A program made the position numbers and the translations under genes. A model generated the notes under the pieces. That model made no database searches. It saw nothing but the letters and a program-made list of their open reading frames with translations, and was not told the DNA's origin. This document shows, in pieces, positions 4,578 through 63,607 of a DNA stretch of 64,000 bases. Each line of letters begins with the position of its first letter. The stretch's first letter is position 1. The DNA is taken from contig NC_135254.1 of assembly GCF_964204865.1 (NCBI RefSeq), forward strand, positions 10,669,001 to 10,733,000, written 5' to 3'. The stretch comes from Styela clava. Its lineage: Eukaryota > Chordata > Ascidiacea > Stolidobranchia > Styelidae.

Positions 4578-7500
4578 TCAAGCATCATATTCATTTTCAG
4601 GCATTGAATTGATGTACGGATGTTCTTTTGTTGTACGATCATTCATTTCTTCGTTCTGATGATCTCCGTCTTTTATTTCTTCATAATTATGTGGGATTTC
4701 ATAATTTCCTTCTTTCTCTTCTCTTAACTCATTATTTCGGGAGTTCAATTGTGATGTTTGAATTTTATCATATTTTTCATAAGAAACCGGGACGTCATTA
4801 ACAACCTCATTCATCTCTGAAAGACGTTGTGGTTGAGTTGCGATTTTTTGAGAATTCCTTCTGTAAACAACAAAAAGGTTAGAAATAGTTCTCACATAGG
4901 CTTTTGAATAAGAAACAATGAATTTGAGACAATTTCTTGAATTGCTTCTGTTATAGAGGACTTAGACGTTATTGTGATCGATAGACACAAAACTCTGGAC
5001 GAAAATGTTAGAGCCCAGTATCTCAGCCATTGTTCCGGACACTGAGAATGGATATACGACTGTATAAAAAGTTTTATTACACTTACTCAATTGAGATGAA
5101 ATACTCAAAATCAGTGAAAATATACACATTTTGCTGTAGTATCGATCATTTCTCACCTCATTACTTTGCATCTACGAATCAGCAAACCAATTCCAAATAA
5201 AATGGCTGCAAGAATCAATGTGACTATGGATGAGACAATTGAAACCAATAAATTGTTGTGGTCTGCAATATAATTCAACAAATAAAAGGATAATAAATTA
5301 AAAAAAAAACTATCAGGATAGGACAAAATAGTTGTTTAGAAAACCTAATTTTGTGCACTTAAGATTATTGTCTCTCATAATTTGTAATCTATATAATCTT
5401 ACCACCAGAAGTGGAAGTCGATGTGGTAGTAGTGATTGCACTAGTTGGAAAGAGAATGTTTATCGCCGTAGTTTTTGTGTTGTTCGCATTAGCAGACAAT
5501 GTGGGAGTATGTGTCATGTCTCTAGGAATTGTAAATGTGGTAGTCATTTTAACAGTTACCGCGGTGGATGTTGTATCACAGGCAGTGTCTCCTGAACAAT
5601 TGGTCGTCTGAAGGAAGCAATTGTGTTTAGCAATTTTTTGATTCAATACGTTGTACAATAATCTTTATATATTTCAACAGTCATTTAAATCCCGAGTTTA
5701 ATTAATGTTTTTCAAAAAGTAAAAATATAAAAACCCAAAAGATAAAAAAAAATATACATTAATTCACACGCTAATGAAAAATATCGAAAGTGAATGATTT
5801 AGATAAATCAGAAACTTTTTTGGAGAATTTGTACATATTCAGTTCATGCGCCCCGAATCAGAAGTATAGCGGGGATGACCCTGAAGGATGCGGCTTACTA
5901 CTAAAACAATATAGCATGATGATCATTTTTCTTTAGCCCTTTAGAAGATCGAAAATTATTAACTTACTACAAAAAATGGCATTTTTTATTTCTTACCTCA
6001 AAATTAGAACCAATGCAAATATTGGGCCTCGTCCTTCCCGAGTCAATGCATGTTCTATAGCGTTCTTTCATCATTGAGCTGCAGTTGCATGTACTCCATG
6101 ATGACCACGTTTCCCAATATCTTCCTGCACATTGTAAAGATAATCTTAATTCAGAATTACCGCGCGCATACTCTTTTCATCGATGTTGTTGATGATGCAT
6201 ATTCAAACTATATCATATTCAAACTTTTCTGCCTTTTTAATTTGTTGTTTTCCTCAGATAGTTATAGATCAAGAGTCAGATTTATTTTTATCATCGTTGA
6301 AACTAAGTGAAGTTGGAGTTCGTGTTAAATTCAAATTACTTTTCGTCTTTTCCGTTATACTAAAAACCTATTTTTAACATTTATACTGTTCTAATCACAC
6401 AGCAAAAGTATATTCGCGCTGGAGTTGATTGTATTGGAGCTATGTTAAATAAATTTAAAACAGTTTGACCTGTCACCTCATTTCTCCTTATTTTTTATTT
6501 TTCAACTTTAATATCAGAAAAAATATGTTAAAAATTCATTTTTACTCGCTGTCGCAAGTTATTTTACTCACCGATATGGCGTTGACAAACGAACCCTTTT
6601 AACCCTGTTGCTCCGGTGAAACAGTCCATCGTATGCCATAGAAGATTTGCGTCATAAGTTTTTTGTTCACCTATCGATACACAAGTCTCTGTTCCACTGA
6701 TATGATTGTTTGGTTCTCCTTCATCCCAAAGAGGGAATGAAAGGTTCCTTCCATCGTTCCATTGAAATATCGACTTCGATTTGTCATAAACAAGTCCAAT
6801 GTAGAATGTGTATGGTTCTCCTGTAATAAAACATATCAAATTGTTTTATACTAGTAGGACACGTTTGGACAAGTGTTTTAGCGATGGTCGAGCAGTTGAA
6901 GCGTTAGCTCTAACTGTGTTGGCATTCCAGATTACGCATCTCAGTTTTAAAAGCCATCCCACGTCACCCCTGGGTGTAATATATTGGTCAGACAATGCAA
7001 AACACTAATAGAAGCTCCTTATATATTGTTAGATATCAGTGGTTTTTGCACGGGTCCGCGTTCGCGTCCTCGTGGGTGTCATATCCCACAAGGAACGGAC
7101 TCGTTGCATTTCGTTCGTAATGCCATCAACGACCGAAATTATTATATCGCCGCAATACATACACATTCATTGACTTTTAATACTTACAATAATGCACGTA
7201 CCTGATCCATCAGAAATGAGTGCTTTTATAAATCTTTGTGTTATTTCATTCTTTATTAATGCTAATTCGCCTCCTTCATTTTTGCAAAATGTTTTCGAAT
7301 ATTCATAAGAACTTGAACTACCACCCGGTGAAACATAATATTCATAACTTCCATTGGGAAACCAGTTTCCTCGACCTGTTTCACAAATGAAATACCAAAT
7401 ATTTGAAAAATACCAGAATCTCGAAACATGCGCAGCGAAAATGCACGGTGGAACGAGATGCCATCAGGTATTGCAGGCGCTTGGTTTACTTTAAATACTA

Positions 7501-10099
7501 AAGTCAAAAATAAAGAGAAGCGGTAATATAGGGACTATTTAAAATTTTTTGGAATATTAGCTATTTTATCACCTTTTGATTAGAGCGAATAGCATAGTTA
7601 AAGGCAACGGCGTTGAGTCAGTGGAAACATTCGTAACATAATTACAAAAAGACGTGTGTTCGACGTGACTTATGTGAAAGAGTTTAACAGAGCCCATTGT
7701 TCATTTCCCAATCTCTTTTTAGCATTAATTGTAATAAATGGTCAGTTTTCGGGAAATGAAGACGTAATAATATAAATTTAAAATGAGTTTTCCATTCTCA
7801 CCTAGTTGAGTCGGAGCTGTGTTCATAAAGGCACAGGTAGCGGATGGCGTGCATATCTAAAAACAACGTTCAAATTGTTCATTCGGCATGCAAGTATTTT
7901 AACCGAGCTAACTATAATAAACAAGCATTTTGAACGGAAAGTCAATCATAATAAGTTATATATCTAAAACAAGTTTACTTCAGACTGTGTTGCCGTGTCA
8001 TTGCATGAGTATGGACCAATTCTTCCGCTGTCAACACAAGTTCGGTTACGCTGTCTTATTCCCGGGCATTCACAACTTCCCCAAGACTCCAATGATCCCT
8101 AGTTCCAGCCTGCAGAAACATACAAAGAAAAATAGGAGGTATATTCTTTACAACTAAGTATTCTGGATCAATTTTTTATCAGTAAATGTAAATCAAGGTG
8201 AACTGTTAATACAGTATGAGCGGCAGAAACAATAGCATAGATGTGCAAGGTATATAAGTAGTGATAAGATCAAAAACAGTTAGATAGTTTTGCTTGCAGT
8301 AAATTTATGATATTGTGAAACTGCTTTCTTTAAACATAATTTATCCAGTTAAATTTAAAATATTGGACCCAGATAACCCAATTCTCAATTTTTCTTAAGA
8401 GTATTTGCTCAAAGCAAAGTTAGTCGCACTCATTCGGAATAAAGAATACTAGTATCTGATAAATATACGGGCGGTAGCTAAAATGCCAAGTGTCACTGCA
8501 ATTATACAGTATTTCGTTGGTGCAATAAACACCAGCGGATGCCTGCTGATGCGTTACTACAAGCAGTTCAAATTAATGCTATAATGAGCATAATCATGGG
8601 CAGTAACTCTTGACATGGTTACAATTTATCAAATTGGCGTTAAAATATATAAATAGGTATTTGCAAAAAGATTTTGACTCTTGTGTTTTACAAAGTTCAG
8701 ACGACCATTTATTGCATAAAAGATTAGTCCGTATTCACAAAAAATATATAATCTACAAATTAAGTATAAATTTATTACAAACAAATGTTATTACCGATTA
8801 ATCGTTGACAGACAAATCCAGTTGGTAAATTCGCAGCGCAATCGACGTCAGACCACGGTAGATTTGCAATATACGTGTGAAACCACCCTATAGCACCACA
8901 AGGTTGGGGTCTCCCACTAGAAGGTTCTCCTGCGTTCCAGTTAGTGTAGGTTAGTTCTGAATTGTCATTCCATATGAAGGTATTACTTGTGCCAACTTCC
9001 TTTAAGCCAATATAAAATCCATATGGTGTTCCTGTAAGTGTAGACAATAAAATGCTGTAGAGCAGGGTTTGTCAAACTGGGGCCCTCGGGCCCGCGGTAC
9101 GTGTTGACTGCACAGAGAGTCCGCAACGATATGAAAAGATTGTGATTGATCTTTAACGATTGATCTTAATCAACAAGTCATAGCATCTTTTTGGTTCAGC
9201 TTTGTGGACAAATATTGCAGTCAGTAAAAGCGATTTCAATTTCATTGCTATTTGCGACGATCTACATTGTGAGGCAGCATTTTTAGCTCTTACCAATATG
9301 ATGACAAAATACAAGTCGAGACTTGTCGTATAATCGAACCTACAAGTTTACTAGTCACAAATTGCTCAAGAATCGATAAATTGAGCAGTGAAAAGCATTA
9401 TTACCGTTTATGTTGTTATGTTGACAAAACAAATTCTTTCCCCGTTGGTTAGGCGCAAAAACTGATACGGGGTCTGTCAAACCTAAGATTCACAAATAGG
9501 GGTCAGACCCAAAAAGTTTGGGAAACCCTGCTTTAGAGTAATAAAAAGTTTTGTCGTGTGTAATATTTGTTGAATGTAAACATCACTGGTTGGAACTGTT
9601 GGAGATAAATGAAACTATATTCTTATATATGACGACTGACGAATTAAACAATTCTCAAACAAACGTATGGAGTATTCTAACGCAAATCCTAAAACGCACG
9701 AACAAAGATTCTAATGATCATAACGTTAAATACTCTTAAGCAAATTCATTCCGGGATCTGGGGTAAAGCGTAAAATGTCCTGTTTACCTGAGGTAGCTGA
9801 GACTTGATTCTGAATAAACGTTTGAATCTCGCTAGTTTTTATCATTGCCATCTCACCATCATTGTTTTTACAGAATGTTTCACCATCAGCATATGATTTT
9901 ATATCTCCATTTCCAGATACGTAGTATTGGTAACTTCCAAATGCATTCCACTCACCTCTACCTGGTCGCAAAAATAAAGAGTTTATCAATCAGCACATAC
10001 TTTGAAAGACATGATAATATATAATATATGCCAACCTGCGCTAACGACGGCAACCATCCAAGCAAATATTCCAACGAATATCAAACGTTGTTCTTTCAT
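4578..10099 (-). CDS. R1: CLECT-TSP1-CLECT-TSP1 transmembrane receptor with short SH2-motif tail; in-frame stop in first TSP1
   Basis: Eleven exons: 10036-10099, 9788-9961, 8795-9031, 7979-8109, 7802-7856, 7202-7375, 6572-6820, 5997-6124, 5403-5607, 5157-5262, 4578-4860. They sum to 602 codons in one frame. Order: signal peptide 1-21, CLECT 22-158, TSP1 159-220, CLECT 221-361, TSP1 362-404, Ser/Thr stalk to about 472, membrane helix about 480-500 followed by Arg-Arg, cytoplasmic tail to 601. Each CLECT has the four core cysteines. The tail holds YEEI (Src-type SH2 site) and YINS (Grb2-type); the YEEM of R3 is NEEM here. Codon 162 is TAG at 8099-8101, where R4 has Trp and R3 has Leu, so full-length protein needs readthrough, exon skipping or a sequencing error; otherwise a soluble single-CLECT product or a dead gene results. 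Start chosen from the signal peptide and an A at -3. Confidence 0.8.
6868..7130 (+). repeat. Possible tRNA-derived SINE remnant in R1 intron
   Basis: The stretch GGTCGAGCAGTTGAAGCG resembles the A-box half of a leucine or serine tRNA. About 170 bases on, CGTTCGCGTCC resembles a B box. A more diverged relative sits in the same intron of R3 (about 33268-33450), so it predates the duplication. No intact tRNA can be folded from it. Confidence 0.3.
7979..8109 (-). other. R1 TSP1 exon carrying a nonsense codon
   Basis: The exon keeps its acceptor (CAG) and donor (GTAAAC) and its length of 131 bases equals that in R3 and R4. In frame it reads G-W-N-stop-G-S-L-E-S-W, against G-W-N-W-G-S-W in R4. Two tryptophans of the TSP1 W-rich ladder are therefore lost, one to TAG (8099-8101 on the plus strand) and one to Leu. 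The rest of the exon is open and keeps all its cysteines, so the lesion looks recent. Confidence 0.75.
9063..9530. mobile_element. hAT-type MITE in R1 intron 2
   Basis: The element opens CAGGGTTTGTCAAACTGGGG and closes AAGTTTGGGAAACCCTG, an inverted repeat of about 17 bases. It is flanked by 8-base duplications, CTGTAGAG and CTTTAGAG. Both are hAT hallmarks. No transposase frame is present. Shorter relatives sit in the same intron of R2 and R4, while R3 has an empty site. Confidence 0.8.
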
Positions 10100-13891: not shown

Positions 13892-16800
13892 TTATTTAAT
13901 GTTGTCAATATTTGCATATGGATCATCGTTTACTTCAATGTCAGCCCCTTCGGCATCTCCCGTGACATCGGAATTCTGATCTGTTTCAGGTTTATTGATC
14001 GTTGCATAAGTTACTTCATTGAAGTTTGAAGAATCATCTTTTCTGGGTTTCTGTACAACAAGGGTCACTTTATTGTCGTCTCCATCTGAAGATGTTTCCT
14101 GTTTCACGGGTTCTTTCGATTTGGTCTTCTGCACGGTAGCGTAAGTCGGACTAGGCACTAGCTTTTCATCAAAAGAATTTTCTGGTTGCGACATTTTTTT
14201 AGAATCCTCAACATAGTGCTTTTGAACCGTTGCGTAAACCACAGGGGAGTTCTCGTCAGGGTAACCAGAAACATTACATTTTTCACTCATTTTTTGCTTA
14301 TCAACAACAGCGTATTGAGTTTCTGATACATCTGCCGCATCCAAATCTTTTGAGAATTTGGATACCTTTTTCGAATTTGTCTTGTTTACAGCAGTATATA
14401 AAGCATTGTCGTTGCCTTCTGTGGTCACATCGTTTATCTGATTCTGATGGTTATCGGCAATGGCGTAGAGGGAATCTTGCCCGTTTGATGAGTCAACTTG
14501 ATCTTCGGGTAAGAGAGAATTATTGTCTGCGTGTCCATCAGGGTTTGCAAACGTCTGATAACGAAGAGTTTCCGTATTTTGAGAATTGTCTCGACCTGAT
14601 TCCACATCTTCGGGATCTGTAGCAGTAAAACATGTTAGTGATATATATTAATATGAATCAGCTGTTTTGACACACTTGAAGCATTTTCGTTTGGAGGAGT
14701 TGGAAAATAGGTCGGAGCCATTCAGATTAACTGACTACATTTGGATACGGACTCATACACCCTATTACCTACTCGAGTTACTTATATTAATATAATAAAC
14801 CAAAACTGAATGCATGATGAAGTTCATTAGAAACAACAATTATGAATTGTTACTGGAAAGATTCTATTTAGTATAGGTTGGTATCGTTGCAACAGGTTGT
14901 GAGTTAAATGTAACATCTTATCTTGTTTTACGCTTCTCTGTGTAGTATTCCTATATGCTATATATTCTCAATATATTTCCCACAAAATCACTTTTTTCCC
15001 ATTAGGCATATAGCTCAAATAAGATAATCATATGTTGCACATTTTGGGGGCTCCCGAAGTATGCGAACCAAGATGGCGGACATCGGAATGTAATATGTGT
15101 ATTAGGTTAAGGTTAGGCCATAATATTAGGTATAAATACTACGGGAGGCTCTTGGCTAGTCTTCGAACTGATAATAGGACTAAAATGAGGAAAATTGGAA
15201 AAAAATTATCGCCTAACCCTAACCTGTTACCCATGTTACGTTCCGATGTCCGCCATCTTGGTTCGCATACTTCGGGAGCACCCCTTTTTGTTTGTCATAC
15301 ATTTACTAGCATGTGGTGGACAGTAAAGTATAAGAATTCATCAACGCAGGTAGAATACGTTGACGTAATACTTTAAATGAAGTTACATTAACTTACGATC
15401 TGACATTATATCTCTCGAATTAAGTTGATTTTCCATTTCTAAATCTTTATGGTAATTGCAACGATCTCCTGTGTTTATGATTCCGCGGCCTCTTCTGAAA
15501 GCAAAACTTTAGATTGTATGCATTCTCGGTGAAATGAGTAAACCCTTAAAAAGATATTTGGTATTTTTTCACTATTCATAAAAGATGTAATGTCATAATG
15601 TTGGGTATATTACCTTTTTTTGAGTTGCTTTGAAAGTATAAAAACAATGATAAGCGCTAAAAGAAGACACCCTCCGATAGTTCCCACGACTGGTCCAATG
15701 ATTGATGTTTGTGCAGCGGGTGTAAATGAACGAAGAATTCCAATCGTCGAAATGTCAGGAATTTCTGTGTGAGATAATATAGGAATTAATATCAGTACAA
15801 TATAAATGATCAGAAATCTAATTTAATACATTATGTTCATTTAACACATTTTTGCGAGCTGAAATTGAATTTAAAATATTTTGCAACGCTCACATTTGAA
15901 AATTAATCGTACGAAAGTTATTTGACTGCTTCATCATGATGTTATACATTTGAACATTCTAATTGGTCTTTTGATCGATGAACAAATGTTGGCCACGTTC
16001 TCGCGTGCATTTTAATAAATGACTCAATTGTAGAAAAGGTGAAACTGATTGTATAAACTTATTATTTGTTATGGCAATGCTGTTATAATCATCCCACGTT
16101 ACGTTTGTTGAAATTATTTGAGTTTGGTTTAAGGAGGATTTTGTCAATATTAACTCTGATCAAATATAGATTGTTGCTTTCATGCAGCTACTAGTATAGG
16201 ATCAAGCCATAAAATTATAAATTGCTGTTATTTTGCGCGTTGCGTGTTGATTGCTACTAGATTCTGGATTGGTAATGACTGTAGAATTCTGCTCAAAGCA
16301 TGTAGTGGCGGCAGTAGACGTAGAATCAGTGTTTGTGGGAGTAGAATCAGATTGAGTAATTCTTCCGGTGGTTGTTTTCATTACCGTTGTTGCTGTAGAC
16401 AAAATTGGCGATGTGACTTCACAATTATTTCATTGACTCGTTTCGTACGTTGATTGTATAATTGTACTTGTAGGGATAGTGGTTTCCAGTGAGCTACTTG
16501 GTATTTCACCGCTACCGAAAGTTGTCATTTCACTTGCCGTCGTCGTCCTCTTCTCATTTATCTGTGTGAGAGACATGGTTGAAGGCCCTGTAATCATCGT
16601 GCTTTCCGTATTAAAAACGTGGCTGTTCGGCGATCTGGATAGTTGAATGGGTAAAAATTTATGCCCGTTCCTTCAGTGCTATTAATTTTAAATTAAGATG
16701 TGAATTAAAAAGTCACTGTCGTCATTTGGTCTTCTTCCGTGCCTGCAAATGAAGAAGAAGTGCCTTGCAAGTTAAAGTTTGCGTTTGCCACAACATACAC

Positions 16801-21283: not shown

Positions 21284-24200
21284 ATGAGAATCGAATCAAT
21301 ATTTTTGTTTGTTCTTCTTCAATATCCGAGGCTTCTGAACGCAGCAGGTATTATTTCATTGCTATGACTTTTTTTTAGAAAATTTACTGAAAACAAGATT
21401 ACTCATTCAGGTATAAGGGAGATTGATCTGATTAAAGATTTTGAGACTATAAGAGATTAAGGGATAGAATTGAACGTTGGTAAATACCGATCGGCACTAA
21501 GCTTAAAAGCAGTTCATATCAATACAATCATTAAAAGATGTGTGAGGTATTGAATTCCATATACATGGAGTTTTTGGAATGAACCTAGGAATTATAGGTA
21601 CACTAACAGTAAACCGATGAGAGCTCACAGTCAATCGTATTTAACGGCTGAAAACTTTTTAGGGGGACAATATTCACATTTTTGAACATTTGGTAAGCGG
21701 TAACAACGGTTGCCTGACAATATGAAATGGTAAAATTTGTTTAGATAATATAGGATTACATTACGTTGAATATAGTTCCAAATATTAATTTATTTTGCCA
21801 GAATGTCGGGAAACGCCCATGGATCTTGTATTTATGCTGGATGGATCGGGTTCTATCACAAATGTGAATTGGGAGCTTATGAAGTCATGGGTCAAGTTGG
21901 TAGCAGAAAATTAAGACTTAGGCGGATTAACACAGATTGGCGTCGTTCAGTTCTCACACTGGTTTTCAAATGAGAAGTAGCTATAGAAAGAGATTTCATT
22001 TTATTTAATTAGATTTAAGCCGCATTGATACCTAATTTATTTAAATTATTCAAAGCAGCTGCTCTATCAGTCAAGATCAAATTGCCTAGAAACAGCTTCC
22101 ATGACATGTATTTGGCTTAACTTTGTGGCGAAGAATGATTCCTTCTTAAGCGTCAAATGAGATCATCATGATCATAATATTTCAAAAATTATGTCAACAG
22201 TGTTTTAGCTATGTTTTATCTTTTAGTTCTTTATTAGAAATTAACAAAGAATTAGTTTTGATCGTTTTCCACTTTGTTCCACTTCGGTGCGAGTGTTTTT
22301 ACGACTTTTATCTGGGTACAGTAAGACTAAGATACATTCTTCAAAAATCATTTTCGGCGTTTGTTTGTGTTTTCAAATTCTTTGTTATTCGATAAAAAAA
22401 ATTCGATAAAACAATTTTCATTTTTTTTTCATAGCACACAGCCATATTTAAAAACTGAAATTCAGCTAGGAAAACTGAAGACCAAAGCCCAATTGAAGGT
22501 AAAATATTCATCAATGGTTGAGCAGTCGAGACTGGTACCGTCACGGTAAGATCAGACCACAGTTCTTGCTGATAAGGTATCGAACATGGCGGAATAAAAA
22601 GTATTCCTCTCTAAATAAAATACAATATTAAACTTTCGAGATAATCATTTGGTTCTATAATTCTTAAAAAAAATACCATTCGTAACAAAAAAAAGAAGTT
22701 AGCATATTTTAGATTCACATGTACAATAAACGCATTTGCAAAACAAAGCTTGTGAGATAGTGTGGCGTCACGTTTTATGCGAAAAAGGACTAAAGAGTGA
22801 TGTTTATTAAAGTAATATAAGAACTAAAATAATAACTGAGTATTCATTAGGCCGCTGTTGACGAAATATCAATTCATGGATTCACAACTTACACTGCACA
22901 TGCTATCAACAAAACAGTAAACGACGATTTCATGAGATCTGATCGTTTTTATGATGCTTCAGTAAAGAAAGTCATTATTTTATTTACAGATGGAAGGTAA
23001 TAATTTTATTTCAATGCCTGAATACAAGCAAAATGCATCTTTGCATCGTATCGTTAACTGTTGTTCATGTTTTTGTTATTATTGTTAATTTTCACGGTTC
23101 ATGTAATGGTAGTTAGCAGAGTTCTTTTGATATATCCGTATATTTAGACCCTTTGTTTTTTTTCAACTTGGGTTTCTGCGCGATATATATTATTTTTATA
23201 TCATCAAGATATTAGTTGTTGAAAATCTAAATAAATGTTATTTCAAAGCTTATTACTCAGAATTGCTACTTTATTATTTACCAAATTATTCTAATCTTAG
23301 ACATCCAAAAATTAAGAAGTAGTATAAAACCGTTTTTGTTTTGCTCGATTTATTGAAGGTATGTAGATTATATGTATGTAGATTGTAGATGATTGTAGAT
23401 AATTTTTTAAATCTTTTGAAGATCTACCGACAGAAATGATTTGCTTTTGTCAGCAAAATATGCTCGGTCAAATGGGATTACTATATTTGCAGTTGGTGCT
23501 GGAGGTTATGTAATGGAGGAATTACAGGTAATCTGAAAAGTTGTAACAAATTGAAATAAGAGAAATTTTATGTATCAATATGTTATAGCTTTTCTATCTT
23601 TTGTCTAATCATTATATTTCTGTGTATTGAAGATTGTTCATCAACAAGACTGAGAAAGTATAACCAAATTAGTTATCAGGATAAAACTCTTTTTGACTGA
23701 GATTGATAAGTAACAATGTAGGCTACTGTAGTTGTTTAAATGTTCTTTCTATTTGGGCATTCGTGAGTGAGACCAGCTTCTTCTCTGTTTCTTATATCTG
23801 GGATTGGCAAAAAATATTTCATTCAAATAATATTTTTCTATTAATTAAATAATTAGGCATGATGATGGAGAAATGACGTATCGCGGGAGCTCGAGCTGAT
23901 ATGCGACTGACGACGTTCCATTTAATCGCTGTAGCCCCAGTATTGATGACATTTGTGGCTGCGAGCCATCGCACACTTGATTTGGATTTGTTCGCAATTA
24001 CTGGATGGTGTGCTATATAGTAACTGAGAAAACACGCAAACCTATAAGCCATACTCGCATATTAATTTCATTCTGACAAAATGTCTATAACTCTGGCGAT
24101 GAATTTGTATCCCATGATTAGATAAGTTAGGACTCCATGATCCAGGAGAATTTGGAAATATTGAATAACCATCATTGTATGATACACCGATAAAGTCAAC

Positions 24201-27200
24201 TAATACACATTATGCACATGCACGTGATTTGCATATAAATCTACCCGATAGACGCTCAGGATCTCCGCTGACACATGAGGCCCGTTCTCCAGCAAAACTG
24301 TAAGCCATGGAAGCAAAATTGCAGATCAATAACGGCAGTGTATTGCGGAACTGCCAGTTTATTTGGACGCTGCGCGGCTCTTCAGCATCTCAGCTTGTGC
24401 GGTTTTCTGTGTCTAATTGTCAAAACAGGTGACCGTACATTTGAACCCATGTACATTTGAACCCATGTGTATATCCGCGGGTTCAATCAATATGCGGGTT
24501 CTAAAACCCATGGGTTAGGTTAGTATGAGTACAAATATCCGTAAAACCAAAAAAATTTCCATAGGTGCAATGGCATGCAGGTGCAATTGTCGTGGGTTCA
24601 AATGTAAAGAAACCGTCAAAACATGTTCACTTGAATTCCTAACTTCCAAAGTTTCCCCAGTTGTGGAATATCGAAATTAGTTTACTAGAAAATCATCTGG
24701 AGCAACATCCAACAAATCGATACATCCATACGTTTGATATCAGAGCAGTATGTTTCCTTATTGCAAACGATTGCGGAAGTTCTACCATAATACACTGCAT
24801 TTAATGAATGATCTCGTTTGCAATGAATTTTCATTTAGGAATATTTACTATAGTGACGCTATGATTCGAGTATTTTTCCACCATTCACGTTTTGCCTGTG
24901 TTTGAACATATTTGAATAAACAGAGCTAGGATTGAGGGCATGGACGTGCCAAACTTTGCTGCTGTCCAGTATGAGGTTATGATAATGATTCCCCCCAACT
25001 TTAAAAATAATTCGGGGGATAAACAAATTAAAGCTGTTGCTATACATGAGAATGAATAATTTAAAGGTCACGTATGAGGGGGAATGTTTGTAAAATTGTG
25101 ATAAATCACTAAATAGCCAGACGAGCAAAAGGGCGGTCAGCCAATGCTGATTCACCACAACCATCACAATCAGTCACACAAATCTATACACGTCATGTCA
25201 GCTTTTACTTGAATAAAACACATAGAGAAAAATGTGTGAAATCGCGAACTCTACAGCTTGGATCTGCTGCCCGCTCATCCGCTGGCAGAGGGAGGATGAA
25301 ATTCACTTAGTCTAAGTTGAATTAAATGTTTCAAGCATGTACTGGCACAATAAGCCACTTCTCACATATCTCAATACCTGTATCTTAGAAAACATATTTG
25401 AGCTATGTTCAGCTATAGATCATAGTTGAATTATACCCGAGGAAACTTGAACTCGACCTTGGCAAAAACAACTATGTGTTGGCATGTAATAAGACTCCAA
25501 CATCCTCTTAATTTTATTTTTTAATTTGGCATTCACTGGTATAATTGTCTCCATTACAATTTTAATATTCTATTTATGTCTTTGTGTTCACGTTTAACGA
25601 CATAGTTGAATTGGTATCATATGAGGAAGTATCAAATAAAACGGTAACAAATTTTTTTTTTAGTAACAATCAAGACCTAACCTTTTATTGCTTGGCTACA
25701 TCGGATGTTTAAACCGAAATTGGGACAGTCGTAAAATGCACACAAGTAAAACTCCACTGGCGAATAAATTTTATATATTTTGACTTTTATTTACAGATTA
25801 TTGCAAATGGCCAGATCAATAACAATGAACGAGTGATTACAGTTTCAAATTTTACTAGGCTGAATACTACGGTAGATATTTTAAAGCAAGGTATATGTGC
25901 TATTCAAGGTAATGTTGATATTAATAGTCAATTTTTATTGAGGCAGCTACGATATGTTAGTAGCATATAATTTCGTACTACGTTTTCATTCTTTGCGCCC
26001 GAATCTGATATTGAGCCAAGACACTATAATAATTTTTTTTGTTTAAATCAGTGGATTATAAGATGAGATGCTTTTTGCAGGCTACCACAGCATAATCAAC
26101 GATCGAAATTTATTTTCTCGTTTCCGAAAAGCATTTCGTTCAATGCGCAGAGCTAATAATAACTCATTTCCTACAGATTTTATAGCATATAATATAGAAA
26201 TTCACATTCACCACAAGGTATAACAGCTCAAATGTACAAATTAAAGAGGGAATTATATAATATTCAAAAAAAAATATTCATATTTGTTTATAGTTCCCTT
26301 CATAGTGTCTCGCTACACTTGCACAACTTCATCGCTAGAAGTTCAATGGAAAACAACTACATTTGAGTCGGTCTTCTCATACAGACTTCAAATTCAGGTT
26401 ATATTAATAAGTAGAATGAAAGTCATTATATTGCTCTAAACATTTTACTGTGCGCTAGAACAGTGGTTCCCAAACTTTTTTGACCCCTAAAGTAGTATAT
26501 ACAACTTCATCAGGGTTCTACCTCCTCAAAAACCGCCGTGTACTCTTGCTTTATAGCATTTCACTTCCTAAATTCATCCCATTTCACATTAAAATAATGA
26601 AAACAAAGTTCGTAATAATAATTTTCGTACATCTCATTCATTCCTACAGCCTGATGACTGGCAACAAAATACTTCGGAAAAATTCATCCCCGATTCCTCA
26701 TCCTACCACGGCCTCCAGTCCGATCACCAGTCCATAGAATTAATCAGCCATTTGTTTTTGGATTCATGGACTCACATGTGGAAGAAGCCGTGACCGACTA
26801 TCGGCTACTGCCCAGGGGTCGGCAAAGATTATGTCGCTCGTGGGACAAAATTTAGGGTTGCTAGTCTTTTGCGGGTCCAATATATTTTTTGAAAGTTAAA
26901 AATGGTACAGTACGAAAACTGCGACAATTCGTGAACTCAACTCAGTCGTCTTATTAAAAAATTATTTCAAATGACATTCAACGTGACACTGTCTTGTTGC
27001 TGTATCACGCTTGATAGCTTTACGACGCCAAGATTGGAACATTTTCCAAATGGGCATCACTAACCCCAATTCTTTGCTTGTTCTTTGTAATGTTCATTTT
27101 CAAAAATAATTGTTCGCACAAATATGTACTTCCAAACATCGAAGTGAATATTTTTGCATGGTTTCTGAAATTTTGATGAAGATTTTCTTTAAGAAGATAC

Positions 27201-37700: not shown

Positions 37701-39830
37701 TTAGACTTCTTTTGTCACAATGACATATTCATCACCTTTGGGACCAATAACTGTCCTTTGTATTCTATTCTGCCTTCTGACTGCCGTGGTCTTATCAATT
37801 TCCTCGTATACATCCTGTTCACATGATTTAAAACTTGGATTGACCGGTGTTGCAACCTTAATGTAGTCATCATCAAGACTCCCTTCTTCAGCTAGAGATG
37901 AACGGAGAGCGGTCCAGACTACTTTGGTTGTTGATTCCCTTTGTATTTCAGCGAAAATTTCGTTTCAACTTTCCACAGGAGATTTTCTATCGTTCATTGA
38001 TATTGGTATTGCAGGTAAAATCATATTCTGTATGACTGAATTATTCTTATTTGAATCATTGTTGAGACTTTCTTTAGTTCTCCGGGATTCTTCGGTGTCT
38101 GTAGATTTTTTGCTCGTATTCTATTGCTCTATATAGCATAATATCATTTCCGATTTTTATAACTGTGACTTTTGGTAAGGTCGGCAAAGTACTGCGCTAA
38201 AATATTTTGATCCTGCTACTATTTTTTGTCTTTCTTCTCATTGAATTTTGTTTTGTTAGGATAACTTCAGGCAGCTGTACAACCTATAATGACACAGTTT
38301 TCATTTCCGCCATTATTATTGGGTTTTCCAGTAAACCAAGTTTCATAAGATTCAACCTCGCCATCAATCCACGCAAAGATGTTATTTCTCACTCTTTATA
38401 AACTAATAAAAAAGTCATATGGCTTATCTGTGCAATAAATTTTTGTTGTTAAAATTTTGTCGATTATTATGGGCTACAATAAATCTTTGTAGACACGGCC
38501 TTGCTCGTTAATAGTTCAAGCCAAAATAATATCCAATAATTCAGAAACTTCAAAATTAAACAAATTTTTATCAGCTATATAAAAAATCTTTCGTCACATT
38601 TTCAGCAACTTTATGTCAAACTTATTACTACGCATTTTCAATACTGAATGACGCTACACAAAAAACATCAAGAAAGGAGTATTTGCTCAATGTCATAGCC
38701 TATACAACATTGGTAACCAAACTATTATCGCTCGTGGCTCCCTACCAGAGGCGTTTAGCATTCATGGCCCCCTGTTTATGATTCCAGTAGTATTTTATTT
38801 TGTAGTGTTATTTTAATTGGTAATTTCCAAATCCCATCATGTTCAAACAAGTAAAAATACCTTGTGAAATAACTTTAACGTCAATGAAATTAGGAAAAAC
38901 TTGAAATTTCCATGTGAAGGAAAAAGTAAAATCAGAGTTGAGTCTAGCATGATGGCCCCCTCCAACTGCTCTGTAGCCTTTGTGAACCACAGGTACCCGG
39001 TTGGGAACTGCTGCTATACAATATAATACCTGAGTCCGATATCACAATACTAGGAATGAAATTTTGCGTTTCGCTTGTTTTACCAAAAGCATCCCACCCT
39101 GTTTTATACAAAAGTTTTTACTTTTGACGAAACTCCTTATGTCATCAGCTTTGGATACATAATATTTGATATTTTTATAGTCTCTGCCAACTCCCATGAC
39201 GATCTATTTAGAGAAAAACTTTGGTACACTGGTTGTGTACATTAAAATTTATATAAAAAAAACTCAATCGGCTTTTGGTGTTCGAAAATATGAGACTAAT
39301 AATTTTAATAGACTATTTTTATCTGGCTACTGTTTAATAATTTCGTAAACTCTTTAAAAGACCTTTGAAAATTAAAACATTTTTGGGGATGTATTTATTT
39401 ATTTTTAACATTGTAATTATTTCCATCATCGTTGTAATATTGAGTGTCAAATTGGGACAATATCTCGAGTGCAGAATACATGCTTTGAAGAGAATCGACT
39501 TACATATATCACGTACCTTGGACAGAAATAAATTCATAAAGGTTCGTGCTTTGAGTTGTTGTTGTTGATCGGGTTGGTATAATATATGTCGATGCCGTTG
39601 AAAGGAATTTTGTCTACCGTATTCTGGGAACTGGTTTTATCCGATGTCGATATTGCCTCTAGAGTTGTCTGCTGGACTGATTGATTGACGAAGTGCAAAG
39701 CAAAGACAATCTCATTATCATAAACTGTTGAGGCGATGTTGTCAGCGTTTGCTGTTGTCGATTCGTCCAACCCGAAACCGATGAGCCCAGAACAGGTATT
39801 TAAAAAATCACAACAACTAAGCTTCAACAT
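37701..39830 (-). pseudogene. X: decayed CLECT receptor with its own tyrosine tail
   Basis: Four pieces read in order on the minus strand. At 39537-39830 is a Ser/Thr-rich open frame. At about 39060-39190 is a lectin N-terminal half with KYYVSKADD and KNFCIKQGG, aligning with the QYYVS and ETFCKNNDG of R1. At about 38270-38395 is a lectin loop with WIDG, WFTGKPNNNGGNENC. At 37701-38098 is a tail exon behind a CTACAG acceptor, with DDDYIKV, DVYEEI and DEYVIV. The lectin piece runs into TGA, and the tail exon has TGA at 37965-37967. No membrane exon is found. It is diverged from R1-R4, so it was a third receptor type. In the first unit all but its last 28 codons is deleted. Confidence 0.6.
38690..39018. 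mobile_element. Probable hAT-like insert within X
   Basis: The right end, read on the minus strand, is CAGCAGTTCCCAACCGGGTA, and GGCCCCC motifs occur near both ends. The left terminus, near TTGGTAACCAAAC, is only roughly complementary. Boundaries are approximate. Confidence 0.4.
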
Positions 39831-43063: not shown

Positions 43064-43068
43064 GTAAG

Positions 43069-52035: not shown

Positions 52036-55000
52036 ATGAGAATCGAATTAATATTTTTGTTGGTTCTTCTTCAATATCCGAGGCATCTGAACGCAGCAGG
52101 TATTATTTCATTGTTATGACTTTTTTTTTAGAAAATTCACTGAAAACAAGGTTACTCATACAGGTATAAGGGAGATTGATCTGATCAAAGATTTTGAGAC
52201 TATAAGAGCTTAAAGGATAGAATTGAGTGTTGGTAAATACCGATCGGCACTAAACTTAAAAGCAGTTCATATCAATACAATCAGTAAAAGATGTGTGAGG
52301 TATTGAATTCCATATACATGGAGTTTTTGGAATGATCTTAGAAATTATAGGTACACTAACAGTAAACTGATGAGAGCTCACAGTCAATCGTATTTAACGG
52401 CTGAAAACATTTTAGGGGGACAATATTCACATTTTTGAACATTTAGTAAGCGGTAACAACGGTTGCCTGACAATATGAAATGGTAAAATTTGTTTAGATA
52501 ATATAGGATTACATTACGTTATGTCTCAAATAATAATTTATTTTGCCAGAATGTCGGGAAACGCCCATGGATCTTGTATTTATGCTGGATGGATCGGGTT
52601 CTATCACAAATGTGAATTGGGAGCTTATGAAGTCATGGGTCAAGTTGGTAGCAGAAAATTATGACTTAGGCGGATTAACACAGATTGGCGTCGTTCAGTT
52701 CTCACACTGGTTTTCAAATGAGAAGTAAGCTATAGAAAGAGATTTCATTTTATTTAATTAGATTTTAAGCCGCATTTATAAATAATTTATTTAAATTATT
52801 TGAAAGCAGCTGCTCTATTAGTCAAGATCAAATTGCCTAGAAACAGCTGCCATGACATGTATTTGGCTTAACTTTGTGGCGAAGAATGATTCCTTCTTAA
52901 GCGTCAAATGAGATCATCATGATCACCATAGTTGTCAAAATTATGTCAACAGTGTTTTAGCTCTGTTGTGTATTTTAGTGCTTTATTAAAAATTAACAAG
53001 GAATTAGTTTTGATCGTTTTCCACTTTGTTCCACTTCGCTGCGAGTGTTTTTACGACTTTTATCTGGGTACAGTAAGACTAAGATACATTCTTCTAAAAT
53101 CATTTTCGGCGTTTGTTTGTATTTTCAAATTCATTGTTATTCAATAAAAAAAATTCGATAAAATAATTTTCATTTTCTTTTCATAGCACACAGCCCTATT
53201 TAAAAACTGAAATTCAGCTAGGAAAACTGAAGACCAAAGCCCAATTGAAGGTAAAATATTCATCAAGGGTTGAGCAGTCGAGACTGGTACCGTCACGGTA
53301 AGATCAGACCACAGTTCTTGCTGATGAGGTATCGAACATGGCGGAATAAAAAGTATTCCTCTCTAATTAAAATACAATAGTAAACTTTCGAGATAATCAT
53401 TTGGTTCTATAATTTTTTTAAAAAATTCCATCCGTAACAACAACAAAAAACAAAACCCAGAATTTAGCATATTTTAGATTCACATGTACAATGAACGCAG
53501 TTGCAAAACAAAGCTAGTGAGATAGTTTGGGGTCACGTTCTATGCGAAAAAGAACTAAAGTTATATTTGTCGTATGAATTGTCTTATTTAACGATTTGTT
53601 CACAAAATTGTGATACCTTCAGAATTCAAAATGCAATTAGCTTTAAATTAATAACTGAGTATTCTTTAGGCCGCTGTTGACGAAATATCAATTCATGGAT
53701 TCACAACTTACACTGCACATGCTATCAACAAAACAGTGAACGAAGATTTCATGAGATCTGATCGTTTTTATGATGCTTCAGTGAAGAAAGTCATTATTTT
53801 ATTTACAGATGGAAGGTAATAACTTGTGTGTACGTCTGAATACACGTAAAATGCACCTTTGAATTGTATCGTTAACTGTTGTTAATGTTTTTGTTATTAT
53901 TGTTAATGTTTACGGTTCTTGTAAGGGTAGTTAGCAGAGTTCTTTTGATATATCCGTATATTTAGCCCTTTGTTTTTCAACTTGGGTTTCTGCGCGATAT
54001 ATATTATTTTTATACCATCAAGATATTAGTTGTTGAAAATCTAAATAAATGTTATTTCAAAGCTGATTACTACTTTATTATTTACCAAATTATTCTAATC
54101 TTAGACATCAAAAAATTAAGAAGTAGTATAAAACCGTTTTCGTTTTGCTCGATTTATTGAAGGTATGCTCGTGTAACAAGTCTTAAATATGTGTGTAGAT
54201 TGTAGATAATTTTTTAAATCTTTTGAAGATCTACCGACAGAAATGATTTGCTTTTGTCAGCAAAATATGCTCGGTCAAATGGGATTACTATATTTGCAGT
54301 TGGTGCTGGAGGTTATGTAATGGAGGAATTACAGGTAATCTGAAAAGTTGTAACAAATTGAAATAAGAGAAATTTTATGTTTCAATATATTATAGCTTTT
54401 CTACCTTTTGTCTAATCAATATATTTCTGTGTATCAAAGATTGTTCATCAACAAGACTGAGAAAGTATAACCAAATTAGTTATCAGGATAAAACTCTTTT
54501 TGACTGAGATTGATAAGTAACAATGTAGGCTACTGTAGTTGTTTAAATGTTCTTTCTATTTGGGCATTCGTGAGTGAGACCAGCTTCTTCTCTGTTTCTT
54601 ATATCTGGGATTGGCAAAACATATTTCATTCAAATAATATTTTTCTATTAAATAATTAGGCATGATGCATGGATAAATGACGTATCGCGGGAGCTCGAGC
54701 TGATATGCGACTGGCGACGTTCCATTTAATCACTGTAGCCCCAGTGGTGATGACATTTGTGACTGCGAGCACACTTGATTTGGATTAGACGCCCAGATAG
54801 ACGCCCAGGATCTCCGCTGATACATGAGGCTCGTTCTCCAGCAAAACGTTAAGTCATGCATGCAAAATTGCAGATCAATAACGGCAGTGTATTGCGGAAC
54901 TGCCAGTTTATTTGGACGCTGCGCGGCTCTTCAGCATCTCAGCTTGTGCGATTGTCTGTGGCTAATTGTCAAAACATGTTCACTTGAATTCCTAACTTCC

Positions 55001-57048: not shown

Positions 57049-57170
57049 GTTATATTCCGGATATCAGACATTTTCAAAAAAAAAAATTGTTTTACACATA
57101 CCAACTTAAAACACATGTAAATCTATAAATGTGTGCGTGTTTTTTTCATTCAGTCTATCGGTGGAAACCA

Positions 57171-57176
57171 AATAAA
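57171..57176 (+). terminator. Probable poly(A) signal of vWFA-C
   Basis: AATAAA 123 bases after the stop codon, in the same context as after vWFA-B. Confidence 0.45.
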
Positions 57177-59189: not shown

Positions 59190-59472
59190 TCAAGCATCAT
59201 ATTCATTTTCAGGCATTGAATTGATGTACGGATGTTCTATTGTTTTACCATCATCCATTTCTTCGTATTGATGATCTCTATCTTTTATTTCCTCATAAAT
59301 ATGCGGGATTTCATAATTTCCATCTTTCTCTTCTCTTATCTCATAGTTTCCGGAGTTCAGTTGTGATGTTTGAATTTCATCAAATTTTTCATAAGAACTC
59401 GGGACGTCACTAACAACGTTATTCATCTCTGAAAGACTTTGTGGTTGAGTTGCGATTTTTTGAGAATTCCTT
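59190..59472 (-). CDS. Distal duplicate of the R5 cytoplasmic tail exon
   Basis: 283 bases, the same length as the proximal tail exon, with an intact TTCACAG acceptor and an open frame to the TGA. It encodes YEEI, YEEM and YINS like its twin; about ten residues of the twins differ, among them PHIYEEI here against PHNYEEI. It lies 2099 bases downstream of the proximal exon. It could be an alternative terminal exon of R5, or an unused duplicate. Acceptor and phase permit splicing from the membrane exon at 61866-61971. Confidence 0.65.
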
Positions 59473-61288
59473 CTGTGAAGAACAATAAGTTAAAGATATT
59501 TTATTTTATAATATTTTTCGAAATCGTTTCCGAGATCAATTTGCTTTGATTCATTTAAATGGAATATTTACTATGAACACATTTCACAATTATATTAGTA
59601 AATTTAAAAAAAAATGAATCTAATAAATTTTGATCGTATTTAGTGATAATATTTACTGCCTTGGAGAAATTACCATTATAATGTTTAGTACAAGGTTATA
59701 TTATTTAGTTTATACTACTGTCGAATAACTCATTCTAAAACGTAAGGGCAGTCAGCTAACTAAGAAAATCATTCGAGCACTATATTTTTACGTTGTTACG
59801 TATGGTTGTTCTCTATTAGTACGAGACTAAATCATTTAGTTTATACTTTGCCGAATAACTTATTTCCCAACTTAAGGACAGTCAGCTAACTAAAGAAAGT
59901 CATTCGAGCATGTATGTTTTTACGTGGTGACGTATGTTTTACGTCACAATTCACAAATACCGCAATTGATGTTATGCTACGGTTCACATCATGAGAAAGC
60001 GTTAACCAAGATTTTATATGTGATTCTTGTTTAATTTGGAAAGATCTAGATCATATTTGAACAAATACATTCAAATCTAATTATTAATTTAAGATTATAT
60101 GGTTACAAACATTATTTATATATAATCTGTTTGACTTATATTCATAGTTTTGCACAAAACAAAAACAATATTGGACCATACAAGTAAGTTCTAAATGTTG
60201 GGTGCTCCCGAAGTATGCGAACCAAGATGGCGGACATCGGAACGTAACATGGGTAACAGGTTAGGGTTAGGCAATAATTTTTTTCCAAATTTCCTTATTT
60301 TAGTCCTATCATCAGTTCGAAGACTAGCCAAGAGCCTCCCGTAGTATTTATACTTAAAATTATGGCCTAACCCTAACCTAGTACACATATTACATTCCGA
60401 TGTCCGCCATCTTGGTTCGCATACTTCGGGAGCCCCAAATGTAGTTATATTTTAAAGTTTCTATTACAAACACTTGAACGAAATCAGGTAATCTTTGAAG
60501 TGATATATATATTCACTATGTGGTCGTAAATTTTATCATTCTTGTATGAATGTGTCAGTTCAGGATTTCTTGATAGTGTTGATAAAAAATTACAAGAAAT
60601 TCCGTTTTAATGATAACACGCATATCCTCATTCAAATTTATGTTTAATCTGACTACTTGACAAGTCTTTATCAAGAATGTAACTAACTGAAGTGAGTAAA
60701 ATGAAAGCATATTATATTTTCTGCTCATCCTTTATTCAAAGTATTGACATGCAAGGCAAATAGGAAAGTGTGAACTCATCACTTAGTCCTATAGCATTAA
60801 ATAATAAGACGATATCACCAAGCTTCAAATTATTAAATAACAATTATTGCAAAAAGAATGTCAGTGGCACCTACAAACAAAAAAGAAACAAACTTTACAA
60901 AAATGTGTTTCTAATTTAAAAGTAAACATGGGATGGATGTTATCAGGGTAAAGAAACCATTATAAAAGAAACCATTAGCAGCCTAGATCACGTTATGCGA
61001 GTTATACCAATCCAGATACATCTTCGGCATATTTAACAAAACGCACCAGCAGAAGACGTCATAACACTTGACTTGCATTTATTAAAAAATCCGAATTTTA
61101 CATCTGCGATACTGACGAAAAATAAACGTTCATAATTTGAACAACAGAAAAAACATGAACCAATATGCAATGTTATTTTTGTTTCAATAAATATCAGTTA
61201 ACACAAGCGCAGAAATTCAAGAACAAGTAGTAATAGTTAAATTCACAACGAAAATAGCAATGAATGATCGCCATTCATATTCAACATG
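59473..61288. repeat. Second copy of duplicated spacer between the two R5 tail exons
   Basis: Runs parallel to 57640-59189 with a small extra repeat near 59750-59900 and the MITE at 60199-60436. Offset between matching points is about 1.9 kb at the left and 2.1 kb at the right. It shows no gene of its own. Confidence 0.65.
60199..60436. mobile_element. TIR MITE inside the duplicated spacer
   Basis: Inverted repeats of about 35 bases (GCTCCCGAAGTATGCGAACC and complement) with a probable 6-base target duplication, AAATGT. The equivalent sites near 29217 and in the first spacer copy are empty, so it arrived after the tandem duplication. Same family as 15046-15285. Confidence 0.8.
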
Positions 61289-63607
61289 TCAAGCATCATA
61301 TTCATTTTCAGGCATTGAATTAATGTACGGATGTTCTATTGTTTTACCATCATCCATTTCTTCGTATTGATGATCTCTTTCTTTTATTTCCTCATAATTA
61401 TGCGGGATTTCATAATTTCCATCTTTCTCTTCTCTTATCTCATAGTTTCCGGAGTTCAGTTTTGATGTTTGAATTTCATCAAATTGTTCATAAGAACTCG
61501 GGACGTCTTTAACAACGTTATTCATCTCTGAAAGACTTTGTGGTTGAGTTGCGATTTTTTGAGAATTCCTTCTGTGAAGAACAATAAGTTAAAGATATTT
61601 TACATGTAGGCTTTTGAATAAGAAACAATGGATTTTTTTCTTGAATCGCTTCTATTATAGAGGAATTAGGCGTCATTGTGATCGTTGGACACAAAAAACT
61701 AGACGAAAGTGTGAGAGCACATAATCTCAGCCATTATTCCGGACATTGAGATTGGATATGCGGCTGTATAAAAAGTTTCACTTTTCTGACTAAATTTAAA
61801 GGAAATACTAAAAAATTTTAAACATTTTATATACACATTTTATTGTTGTATCGAACAATTCTCACCTCATTACTCTGCATTTACGAATCAGCAAAACAAT
61901 TCCAAATAAAATGGCTGCAAGAATCAATGTGACTATGGATGAGATAATTGCAACCAATAGAATGTTGTGTTCTGCAATATATTTCAATATATAATAAGAA
62001 TCATAAACCTCAATAAATTTATCAGGTGCGACCACAAACAACTACACAACAGTAATGAAAACGGGTAAATATCAGTTGTAAAAACCAGAAAGTCAGTGAG
62101 CATATTGTACCACAAAATAGTAGTTCAGAAAATCGAATTATGCGCACTTGAGACTAATGTCTCTTATAATTTGTAAGCTATATAATCTTACCACTAGAAT
62201 TCGTTGTAGTAGTAGTGATTGCACTGATGGGAGAGAGAATGTTTATCTCCGTAGTTTTTGTGTCATTTGCAATGGCAGACAATGCGGAAGTATGTGTCAT
62301 GTCAGTAGGAGTTGTAAATTCATGATATTTATTTGTTGTTGTCATTTCAACGGTTGAAGGGGTGGGCGTTGTTTCACAGGTAGTGTCTTTTGAACATTTG
62401 GTCGTCTGAAGAAAGTAATTGTGATTTAGCAATATTTCGATTCAATATATGTACGATAATTTTTTATTTATTTCAACGGTTTTTTAAATCTGTATAATGT
62501 TCTTCAAAAAGTTGAACAAATATAAAAATGCTCACAAAAATATTGATTCACATGCTAATGAAAAATATCGAAAGTGAATAATTTAGATGAATCAGAAACC
62601 TTTTTGGTAATTCGTCAATAGCCAGGTCTTGCGACCTGAATCAGAAATATTGAAGATTCACTTTTGAAAGTGCAGCTTATACATTAATATAGTATAAACT
62701 AATAAAAAAACATAGAATGATAATCATTTTTCTTTTAAGCACTTTAGAAGATCAAAAACTATTAAATTACTACAAAAAGTGGCTTTCCCTATTTTTTACC
62801 TCAAAATTAGAACCAATGCAATTATTGGGCCCCATCCTGCTCGAGTCAATGCATGTCCGATTTCTTATTTTCATCATAGAGCTGCAGTAACATAAACTCC
62901 ACGATGACCAGGTTTCCCAGTATTTCCCTACACAGTGTAAACATAATCATACGTACGATTCCTCTTTTTATTGATTTTATTCATGGTCCATATTCCAACT
63001 ATATCATATTCTAAACTTTATGCTCTTTCAATTTGTTGAATCTTACAACTAAATATAGATTCAGAGCCAGGTTTTTTTTGTCATAATTGAAACTAAGTTA
63101 AGTTGGAGTTCGTGTAAATTTATATTCCTTTTCACCGTTTGCGTTATATTAAATCTTATTTTTAACATTTTATACTGTTTTAAGCACACAGCAAAAGTAA
63201 ATTCGCGCTGGAGTTGAATGTATTGAAGCTATGTTGAATAAATATAGCAGTTTGACCTGTCACTTCATCACTTCCTATTTTTTTTTACTTTTATCAGAAA
63301 AATTATGCTAAACATTCGTCTCAACTCGGTTGTCAACAGACATTTTACTCACCGATAATGCGTTGACACACCAATCCTTTCAATCCTGTTGCTCCAGTGT
63401 CACAGTCCATCGTATGCCATAGAAGATTTGCGTCATAAGTTTTTTGTTCACCTATCGATACACAAGTCTGTGTTCCACTATCAGTATCATGATTGTTTGG
63501 TTCCCCTTCATCCCAACGAATGAATGAAAGGTTTGTTCCGTCGTTCCATTTAAACATCGACTTTGATTTGTCATAAACAAGTCCAATGTAGAATGTGTAT
63601 GGTTCTC
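61289..63607 (-). CDS. R5: 3' part of a CLECT-TSP1 receptor with YEEI/YEEM/YINS tail (5' end outside window)
   Basis: Exons 63353-63607 (second half of a CLECT), 62800-62927 (TSP1), 62192-62405 (Ser/Thr stalk), 61866-61971 (membrane helix) and 61289-61571 (tail) match R1 and R3 in phase and length; the CLECT exon is 85 codons against 83 and 84. The lectin half has GEPNN and WHTMDC, with TQTC in place of the TETC of R1 and R3. The membrane helix ends in Arg-Lys-Cys-Arg. The tail carries YEEI, YEEM and YINS. The remaining lectin, TSP1 and signal-peptide exons should lie beyond base 64000. A second tail exon follows at 59190-59472. Family firm, function inferred as in R3. Confidence 0.8.

Follow-up and report, generated by a model that had tools for sequence, protein, structure and literature searches.

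Clusters of receptors with opposed cytoplasmic tails are known in vertebrates. The lectin receptors of the natural killer (NK) complex (NKG2/CD94, Ly49, NKR-P1) are clustered C-type lectins with similar ectodomains that are either inhibitory or activating. They are type II proteins with a single C-terminal domain, and the activating members mostly use adaptors. Here, we describe a locus of the tunicate Styela clava, contained in a 64,000-nt stretch of its DNA (the window), that probably follows the same principle with other parts. The minus strand of the window carries an array, at 4578-63607, of four receptor genes (R1 to R4) and, by its 3' part, a fifth one (R5), which combine C-type lectin (CLECT) and TSP1 domains with one of two tails. 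The long tail (R2, R4) has immunoreceptor tyrosine-based inhibition and switch motifs (ITIM and ITSM) and the short tail (R1, R3, R5) has other tyrosine motifs. With a probability of roughly 0.62, we read the locus as a paired array of type I lectin receptors whose long tails would be inhibitory and whose short tails would be stimulating. Unlike the NK-complex receptors, the Styela proteins are type I, with N-terminal and often several CLECTs (1-4 Lectin_C) and the transmembrane (TM) segment after the CLECT. They also differ by the TSP1, the stalk, the tyrosines in both tails and the TM segments, which contain no charged residue in the sequences of our gene models.

In Botryllus schlosseri, the FcoRs are clustered receptors with opposed tails and immunoglobulin (Ig)/sushi ectodomains, and homologues of most proteins of the ITIM and activation motif (ITAM) pathways, SHP-1 included, are reportedly expressed (PMC12065747). 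Like the Styela array, the fester family and FcoRs of this tunicate are clustered type I receptors encoded by paired genes, some with an ITIM; their gene content is variable, and other members have a hemITAM (a half ITAM) or the core motif Y-x-x-I/L/V (same source). The FcoR ectodomain is reported to consist of IgV, sushi and two C2-type Ig domains, and the word lectin is absent from PMC12065747, whereas the Styela array has CLECT and TSP1. No Ig or sushi domain was matched in Pfam scans of the Styela family, and no hemITAM was seen by eye in its tails, no pattern search having been run. Two further tunicate proteins, BsCD94-1 and CiCD94-1, resemble the array as transmembrane C-type lectins of blood cells, but their description, in the accessible portion of PMC5465252, includes neither TSP1 nor ITIM pairing. 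The oyster CgCLec-TM1 and CgCLec-HTM, also from an invertebrate, are transmembrane C-type lectins whose tails signal through tyrosines; unlike the array, they are hemITAM- or ITAM-like and activating only, without TSP1 or an ITIM partner in the text at hand (PMC13027682). The array also resembles the mannose receptor family by the repeated lectin domains of some members, and LY75/DEC-205, MRC1 and the yolk sac IgY receptor of that family are the nearest solved structures by sequence for both kinds of CLECT. Mannose receptors have ricin-type and fibronectin II domains before their C-type lectin-like domains, and we know of none with a TSP1 or an ITIM tail; neither a fibronectin type II nor a ricin-type domain turned up in Pfam scans of the Styela family.

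A 2003 urochordate genome survey is cited for C-type lectins, ITIMs and ITAMs in the available part of PMC2248247. In the open-access literature on ascidian, Ciona, tunicate and Styela C-type lectins with TSP1, ITIM or ITAM, on invertebrate paired lectin receptors and on four gene names of the family, we found no such receptor described, although the 2003 survey may mention a similar architecture. The combination of CLECT, TSP1 and ITIM, at first noted as not known from a described receptor family, thus appears undescribed; the novelty does not extend to the paired-tail principle, which is known.

To place the exons, the window was searched in translation and read for splice sites; the exons were then joined into spliced models, with signal peptides called by eye. 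The exons have canonical splice sites, apart from one GC donor in the longer form of the R2 stalk exon, and give open reading frames. Their phases are consistent: the signal peptide ends in phase 1, followed by CLECT (1-1), TSP1 (1-0), stalk (0-1), TM (1-2) and the short tail (2 to stop). The models describe type I receptors with a signal peptide, one or two CLECTs, one or two TSP1s, a Thr-rich stalk, a TM segment and a tail. The first-pass annotation had proposed five genes sharing signal peptide, lectin and TSP1 exons. The array itself is retained, with the signal peptide and first exons of R5 lying outside the window, and the exon content had to be enlarged: R1 and R3 have two CLECTs and two TSP1s, R4 has two TSP1s, and a second exon completes each TSP1. 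The proposed junction of ectodomain and tail exons is also made by public gene predictions, which are not transcripts. The long ITIM/ITSM tail of R2 and R4 was recovered as well, but a 98-nt exon between TM and tail (cyt1, phase 2-1) had been missed, without which the tail is out of frame.

Tail motifs, with ITIM, ITSM and ITAM defined as is common, were counted and compared with residue shuffles of each tail. YEEI and YINS are present in the short tails of R1, R3 and R5. YEEM follows in R3 and R5, while R1 has NEEM, with Asn in place of the second Tyr, in agreement with the early statement that YEEM occurs in most of them. Among the public proteins of the family (P0001 to P0014), P0009 and P0014 have, like R3 and R5, the arrangement YEEI-x6-YEEM, and P0013 has YEKI-x6-YEEM. 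No ITIM was found in the short tails. The long tail of R2 contains two ITIMs and one ITSM (VVYATV, VTYATI, TQYAVV), that of R4 one ITIM and one ITSM (VTYATV, TQYAFV), and that of another family gene, LOC120344507, four ITIMs. The pattern Y..[ILV] is found 6 times in R2 for 1.6 expected from shuffles (p 0.0016), 6 times in R4 for 1.4 expected (p 0.0007) and 8 times in LOC120344507 for 1.4 expected (p 5e-5). Strict ITIM/ITSM motifs also exceed shuffles in R2 (p 0.0096) and LOC120344507 (p 4e-4). The two tail kinds are unrelated by BLASTP, with E-values of 17 for tail against tail and 30 for TM-plus-tail against TM-plus-tail. Six of the seven motif tyrosines are present in each of five long tails compared, yet 178 of 283 columns are invariant, and no excess is claimed.

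Long- and short-tailed genes have homologous DNA over about 0.8 kb of upstream sequence, the signal peptide and the first CLECT (74-92%). In the case of R4, the homology takes in the first TSP1 with its end exon, plus a broken CLECT-2 exon, and R3 shares with both long-tailed genes an additional ~85 bases of a TSP1 exon; at E 1e-5, no homology between the tail kinds was detected in the stalk, TM or tail. In a tree of 12 N-terminal CLECTs, leaving out P0005 and also P0008, which has no N-terminal CLECT, the tail label changes 4 times, against a shuffled mean of 4.0-4.1 (368-380 of 500 shuffles are as low). With P0005 included, there are again 4 changes (341-351 of 500 shuffles as low). The ectodomains are likely mixed with respect to tail kind. 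Site patterns upstream of the signal peptide gave a mere hint of recombination, which was set aside, the sites being too dense for a trustworthy alignment.

We then compared P0004 and P0005, which share gene and isoform name (LOC120344507 isoform X2); P0005 presumably comes from another assembly. The two differ at 32 of 137 residues in the N-terminal CLECT (CLECT-N; 23%) and at 27 of 143 in CLECT-2 (19%, with 2 more gapped). Elsewhere, the differences are 3/61 and 3/54 in the TSP1s, 19/219 in the stalk, 2/50 in the TM exon and 6/278 (2%) in the tail. Among comparable residues, 59 of 278 differ in the lectins against 6 of 115 in the TSP1s (p 4e-5), and the contrast between CLECT-N and tail reaches p 1e-11. 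Within the lectins, the long-loop side, usually the ligand-binding side of C-type lectins, differs at 25 of 72 sites against 34 of 206 elsewhere (p 0.002, with a cut chosen after viewing the list). The CLECT-Ns of P0004 and P0005 are 77% identical, while those of different members span 73-99%. This concentration of differences in the lectins, seen in predicted proteins, speaks for a recognition role but is no proof of it. The differences include a Q/E change in a CLECT, at the first residue of the site on which sugar specificity depends in other C-type lectins.

For this variation result only, P0004 and P0005 might not be alleles, and might instead be different copies, or products of unequal crossing-over, under one label. 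Tandem near-copies recombine, a single such gene pair was comparable, and the tree does not place the two CLECT-Ns as sisters, although the approximately unbiased (AU) test does not reject a clade joining them (p-AU 0.059). However, the two tails share 98% identity, and no more than 75% with any of the four other long tails compared, and only 3 of 61 sites differ in the TSP1 lying between the variable CLECTs, a pattern that a single crossover would not yield. Moreover, the CLECT-N of P0005 shares no more than 80% identity with any other family member found. We regard non-allelic copies as a tenable, though less likely, explanation.

If the array is a paired-receptor locus, the CLECT would have a ligand of microbial or self origin, a glycan or a protein, and would be kept off the membrane by the TSP1 and the Thr-rich stalk. 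A Src-type kinase would phosphorylate the ITIM/ITSM tyrosines of the long tails, SHP-type phosphatases would be recruited and the cell would be damped. In the short tails, YEEI, YINS, YEIP and YEEM would serve as docking sites for SH2 proteins of Src, Grb2, Crk or PI3K type, leading to stimulation. These tails are probably stimulating through Src/Grb2/PI3K-type sites and not through a strict ITAM, a logic for which DAP10 or CD28 would be a closer model than an ITAM receptor; YEEI, YINS and YEEM, as SH2-type motifs, could substitute for an ITAM or for an adaptor-pairing charge in the TM segment. The response would be set by the balance of the two receptor kinds, probably in blood cells. Skipping of cyt1 would remove the ITIMs from a long-tailed receptor, and splicing at this exon may switch the inhibitory tail off.

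Several observations weigh against this reading. The first-pass annotation had already proposed an invertebrate paired-receptor locus, for immunity or self/non-self recognition, and a tunicate array of similar ectodomains on two unrelated tails, one of them with ITIM/ITSM, supports this in part; the proposal is weaker on the stimulating side, as none of the six short tails (five proteins and R5) has a strict ITAM. In the short tails, the number of Y..[ILV] is at chance compared with shuffles (p 0.22 for R1, 0.31 for R3 and 0.63 for R5). R1 lacks YEEM and carries an in-frame TAG. Strict ITIM/ITSM motifs in R4 reach only p 0.056 against shuffles, and the ratio of non-synonymous to synonymous substitution rates (dN/dS) of the long-tail exon is 1.19 between R2 and R4 (31 non-synonymous and 7 synonymous changes), with no sign of constraint in that pair. 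The TSP1 assignment is borderline in Pfam. Finally, the mixing of ectodomains is likely and not proven, because the CLECT tree is poorly resolved (firm inner branches 1/9 and 1/10) and the AU test does not reject a single short-tail clade (p 0.173).

The same genes could form two sub-families of adhesion, scavenger or endocytic lectins, in which the tyrosine motifs are YxxPhi sorting sites or generic SH2 sites without opposed outputs. YxxPhi motifs also serve endocytosis, the proteins with the closest solved structures for both CLECT kinds (LY75, MRC1, yolk sac IgY receptor) are endocytic, and the short tails without a strict ITAM would fit. Against this stand the strict ITIM/ITSM excess in R2 and LOC120344507, the variation concentrated in the lectin domains and the common ectodomain on two unrelated tails in duplicated units, which is unusual for a plain endocytic family; we hold such a family to be unlikely. 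It is quite improbable that the cluster is simply decaying, with several members broken and tails drifting rather than signalling: the reading frames of R2, R3 and R4 are open throughout and their splice sites intact, the family has 13 gene names, and the two versions of LOC120344507 keep a 98% identical tail while their CLECTs differ. Signs of decay do exist, namely the TAG of R1, located in an exon of the public reading frame, a degenerate remnant at 37.7-39.25 kb, the broken CLECT-2 exon of R4, a broken stalk stretch in R2 and R4, and the dN/dS of 1.19 in the R2/R4 tail.

Tunicates are the sister group of vertebrates, and a single or repeated origin of paired activating and inhibitory recognition is at stake. 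The locus offers exact gene models, its parts differ from those of both vertebrate NK receptors and Botryllus FcoRs, and the lectin domains are pointed to as the variable part. A bolder version of the paired-array reading, which we consider doubtful, would make it the lectin-based, highly polymorphic self/non-self system of a solitary tunicate, separate from the Ig-type fuhc/FcoR locus of Botryllus. A common pool of diverse CLECT ectodomains would then be mounted on inhibitory or stimulating tails, with cyt1 splicing able to strip the ITIMs; if true, NK-like paired recognition would have been invented separately in the sister group of vertebrates. In Styela clava, allogeneic stimulation reportedly makes lymphocyte-like cells proliferate (attributed to Raftos and Cooper, 1991, a reference of PMC2248247), so an assay to link with the array may exist.

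Searches with R4 and with an 11-protein family alignment returned 13 and 14 proteins, respectively, at E <= 1e-3, all from Styela clava. The CLECT-TSP1 part of R3 retrieved 13 proteins at E <= 10, all from Styela. Beyond Styela, no relative was found at E <= 10 among 1688 candidates, nor at 1e-3 among 5768 and at least 7987 candidates; these sets were word-filtered and length-limited, and this is weak evidence of absence. The 14 family proteins correspond to 13 gene names, and all are on one contig, of 24,897,793 bases, except P0005, which lists no contig. According to TM and tail, 5 are short-tailed (P0009, P0011-P0014) and 9 have the long-tail TM, among which P0010 has a 43-residue tail lacking ITIMs and P0007 has a 151-residue tail.

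Lectin_C was far over the Pfam cut-off in all family proteins scanned. In the 6 of 14 proteins scanned whole, the number of CLECTs is four in P0014, three in P0009, two in P0004 and P0012 and one in P0006 and P0013. TSP_1 passed its cut-off in P0012, with two copies (27.0 vs. 21.6 bits), and stayed under 21.6 bits in two single-TSP1 constructs (20.9 and 18.2) and in P0013 (17.1). At E <= 0.1, it was unlisted for P0004, P0006, P0009 and P0014, the last having a sub-threshold TSP1_spondin match. PF00090 is among the precomputed domains of the database for P0001, P0002, P0005, P0007, P0010 and P0012. The TSP1 seems to be split across two exons, since the exon after the TSP1 exon supplies two more cysteines (ICTPSASC in R3 and R4, ICTPSATC in R1, or the start of the stalk exon). 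Calcium-dependent C-type lectin-like domains of mannose or galactose type have EPN or QPD plus WND motifs. Eight of the nine inner CLECTs have EPN and one has QPN, with WHT where WND is expected; the N-terminal CLECTs (n=13) have EPS, EPT, EPH or QPS, with WYD, WSD or WFD. Positive selection on the CLECTs of the window was sought by dN/dS and is not claimed, Cb2 giving 0.50-1.04 and the Cb1 ratios >1 being based on 0-1.5 synonymous changes. The rows for the R1 TSP1 exon, misaligned by its TAG, were discarded.

All receptor genes and their exons are given here on the minus strand. R1 (short tail, LOC144422855) spans 4578..10099, with the signal peptide at 10099-10036, CLECT-1 at 9961-9788 and 9031-8795, TSP1-1 at 8109-7979 and its end exon at 7856-7802. 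CLECT-2 is at 7375-7202 and 6820-6572, TSP1-2 at 6124-5997, the stalk at 5607-5403, the TM at 5262-5157 and the tail at 4860-4578. The model equals P0011, the sole difference being around the in-frame TAG of the first TSP1 exon, which the public model bypasses; R1 may be defective or use another junction. R3 (short tail, LOC144422857; 30176..36273) is identical to P0012 over 603 residues. Its signal peptide is at 36273-36222, CLECT-1 at 36147-35974 and 35798-35562, TSP1-1 at 34817-34687 with its end exon at 34162-34096, CLECT-2 at 33689-33516 and 33229-32978, TSP1-2 at 31797-31670, the stalk at 31299-31092, the TM at 30878-30773 and the tail at 30458-30176. The 3' part of R5 (short tail; 59190..63607) comprises a CLECT at 63607-63353, TSP1 at 62927-62800, the stalk at 62405-62192, the TM at 61971-61866 and the tail at 61571-61289. 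R5 has two copies of its tail exon, the second at 59472-59190, contained in a 1.1-kb tandem duplication (96.5%); both are open, and two alternative tails are possible for this gene.

The long-tailed R2 (LOC144422856; 13892..18738) is contained in P0003, which begins at an upstream Met, 18777. It has the signal peptide at 18738-18675, CLECT at 18604-18431 and 17966-17730, TSP1 at 17531-17404, the stalk at 16944-16803 (or to 16743), the TM at 15764-15614, cyt1 at 15494-15397 and the tail at 14616-13892. R4 (LOC120344702; 43155..49719) corresponds to P0001 plus one Ser, with the signal peptide at 49719-49656, CLECT at 49582-49409 and 48933-48697, TSP1-1 at 47965-47835 and its end exon at 47103-47037. 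The broken CLECT-2 exon is at ~46790-46695, TSP1-2 at 46588-46461, the stalk at 46000-45799, the TM at 44808-44658, cyt1 at 44535-44438 and the tail at 43882-43155. The cyt1 exon is also in P0003 and P0001. Joining the TM exon of R2 straight to the ITIM exon broke the frame, the reading stopping 25 residues past the TM exon, and the cyt1 model was adopted. P0010 (LOC144422881) has a frame-shifted tail, nearly the same ending as that produced by skipping cyt1 in R2. A Thr-rich stretch downstream of the stalk exon (16669-16205 in R2, 45729-45269 in R4) was rejected as an exon, being interrupted by a stop in R2 and by a break of the frame in R4; in P0004 and P0010, whose stalks are longer, similar sequence stays open. 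Another model, in which the CLECT/TSP1 cassettes of R1, R3 and R4 were phase-exclusive alternatives, was ruled out by the small phase 0-to-1 exon completing the first TSP1.

Tandem segmental duplications make up the window: 169-1754 corresponds to 22834-24430, and 7-1311 to 53499-54786, each at 94.6%, and other duplicated blocks have 71-96% identity. The order along the minus strand, 5' to 3', is R5 (short, partial), R4 (long), a degenerate receptor, R3 (short), R2 (long), a scrap of degenerate receptor and R1 (short), and each of the two units seen whole pairs a long-tailed with a short-tailed gene, both in the same orientation. The degenerate remnant (37701..39250, minus strand) consists of broken CLECT exon pieces and a Tyr-rich, tail-like open reading frame (37964-37701) with DDDYIKV, DVYEEI and DEYVIV, which resembles neither the short nor the long tail and had no match in a Pfam scan. 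The first unit keeps only the last part of this degenerate receptor (11598-11512, minus strand). An Rfam scan of the window at gathering thresholds gave no match. On the opposite strand, an isolated von Willebrand A (VWA) exon is duplicated (21789-21977 and 52537-52725, plus strand); the 52.5-kb copy matches Pfam VWA at E 1.7e-9 and the copy at 21789-21977 has an in-frame TAG. In addition, a transposon of ~240 bp resembling a miniature inverted-repeat transposable element, with 82-84-nt inverted-repeat ends, is present at 15041-15283 and 60198-60442. The two copies are 95.9% alike and in opposite orientation, and one sits in the TM-to-tail intron of R2.

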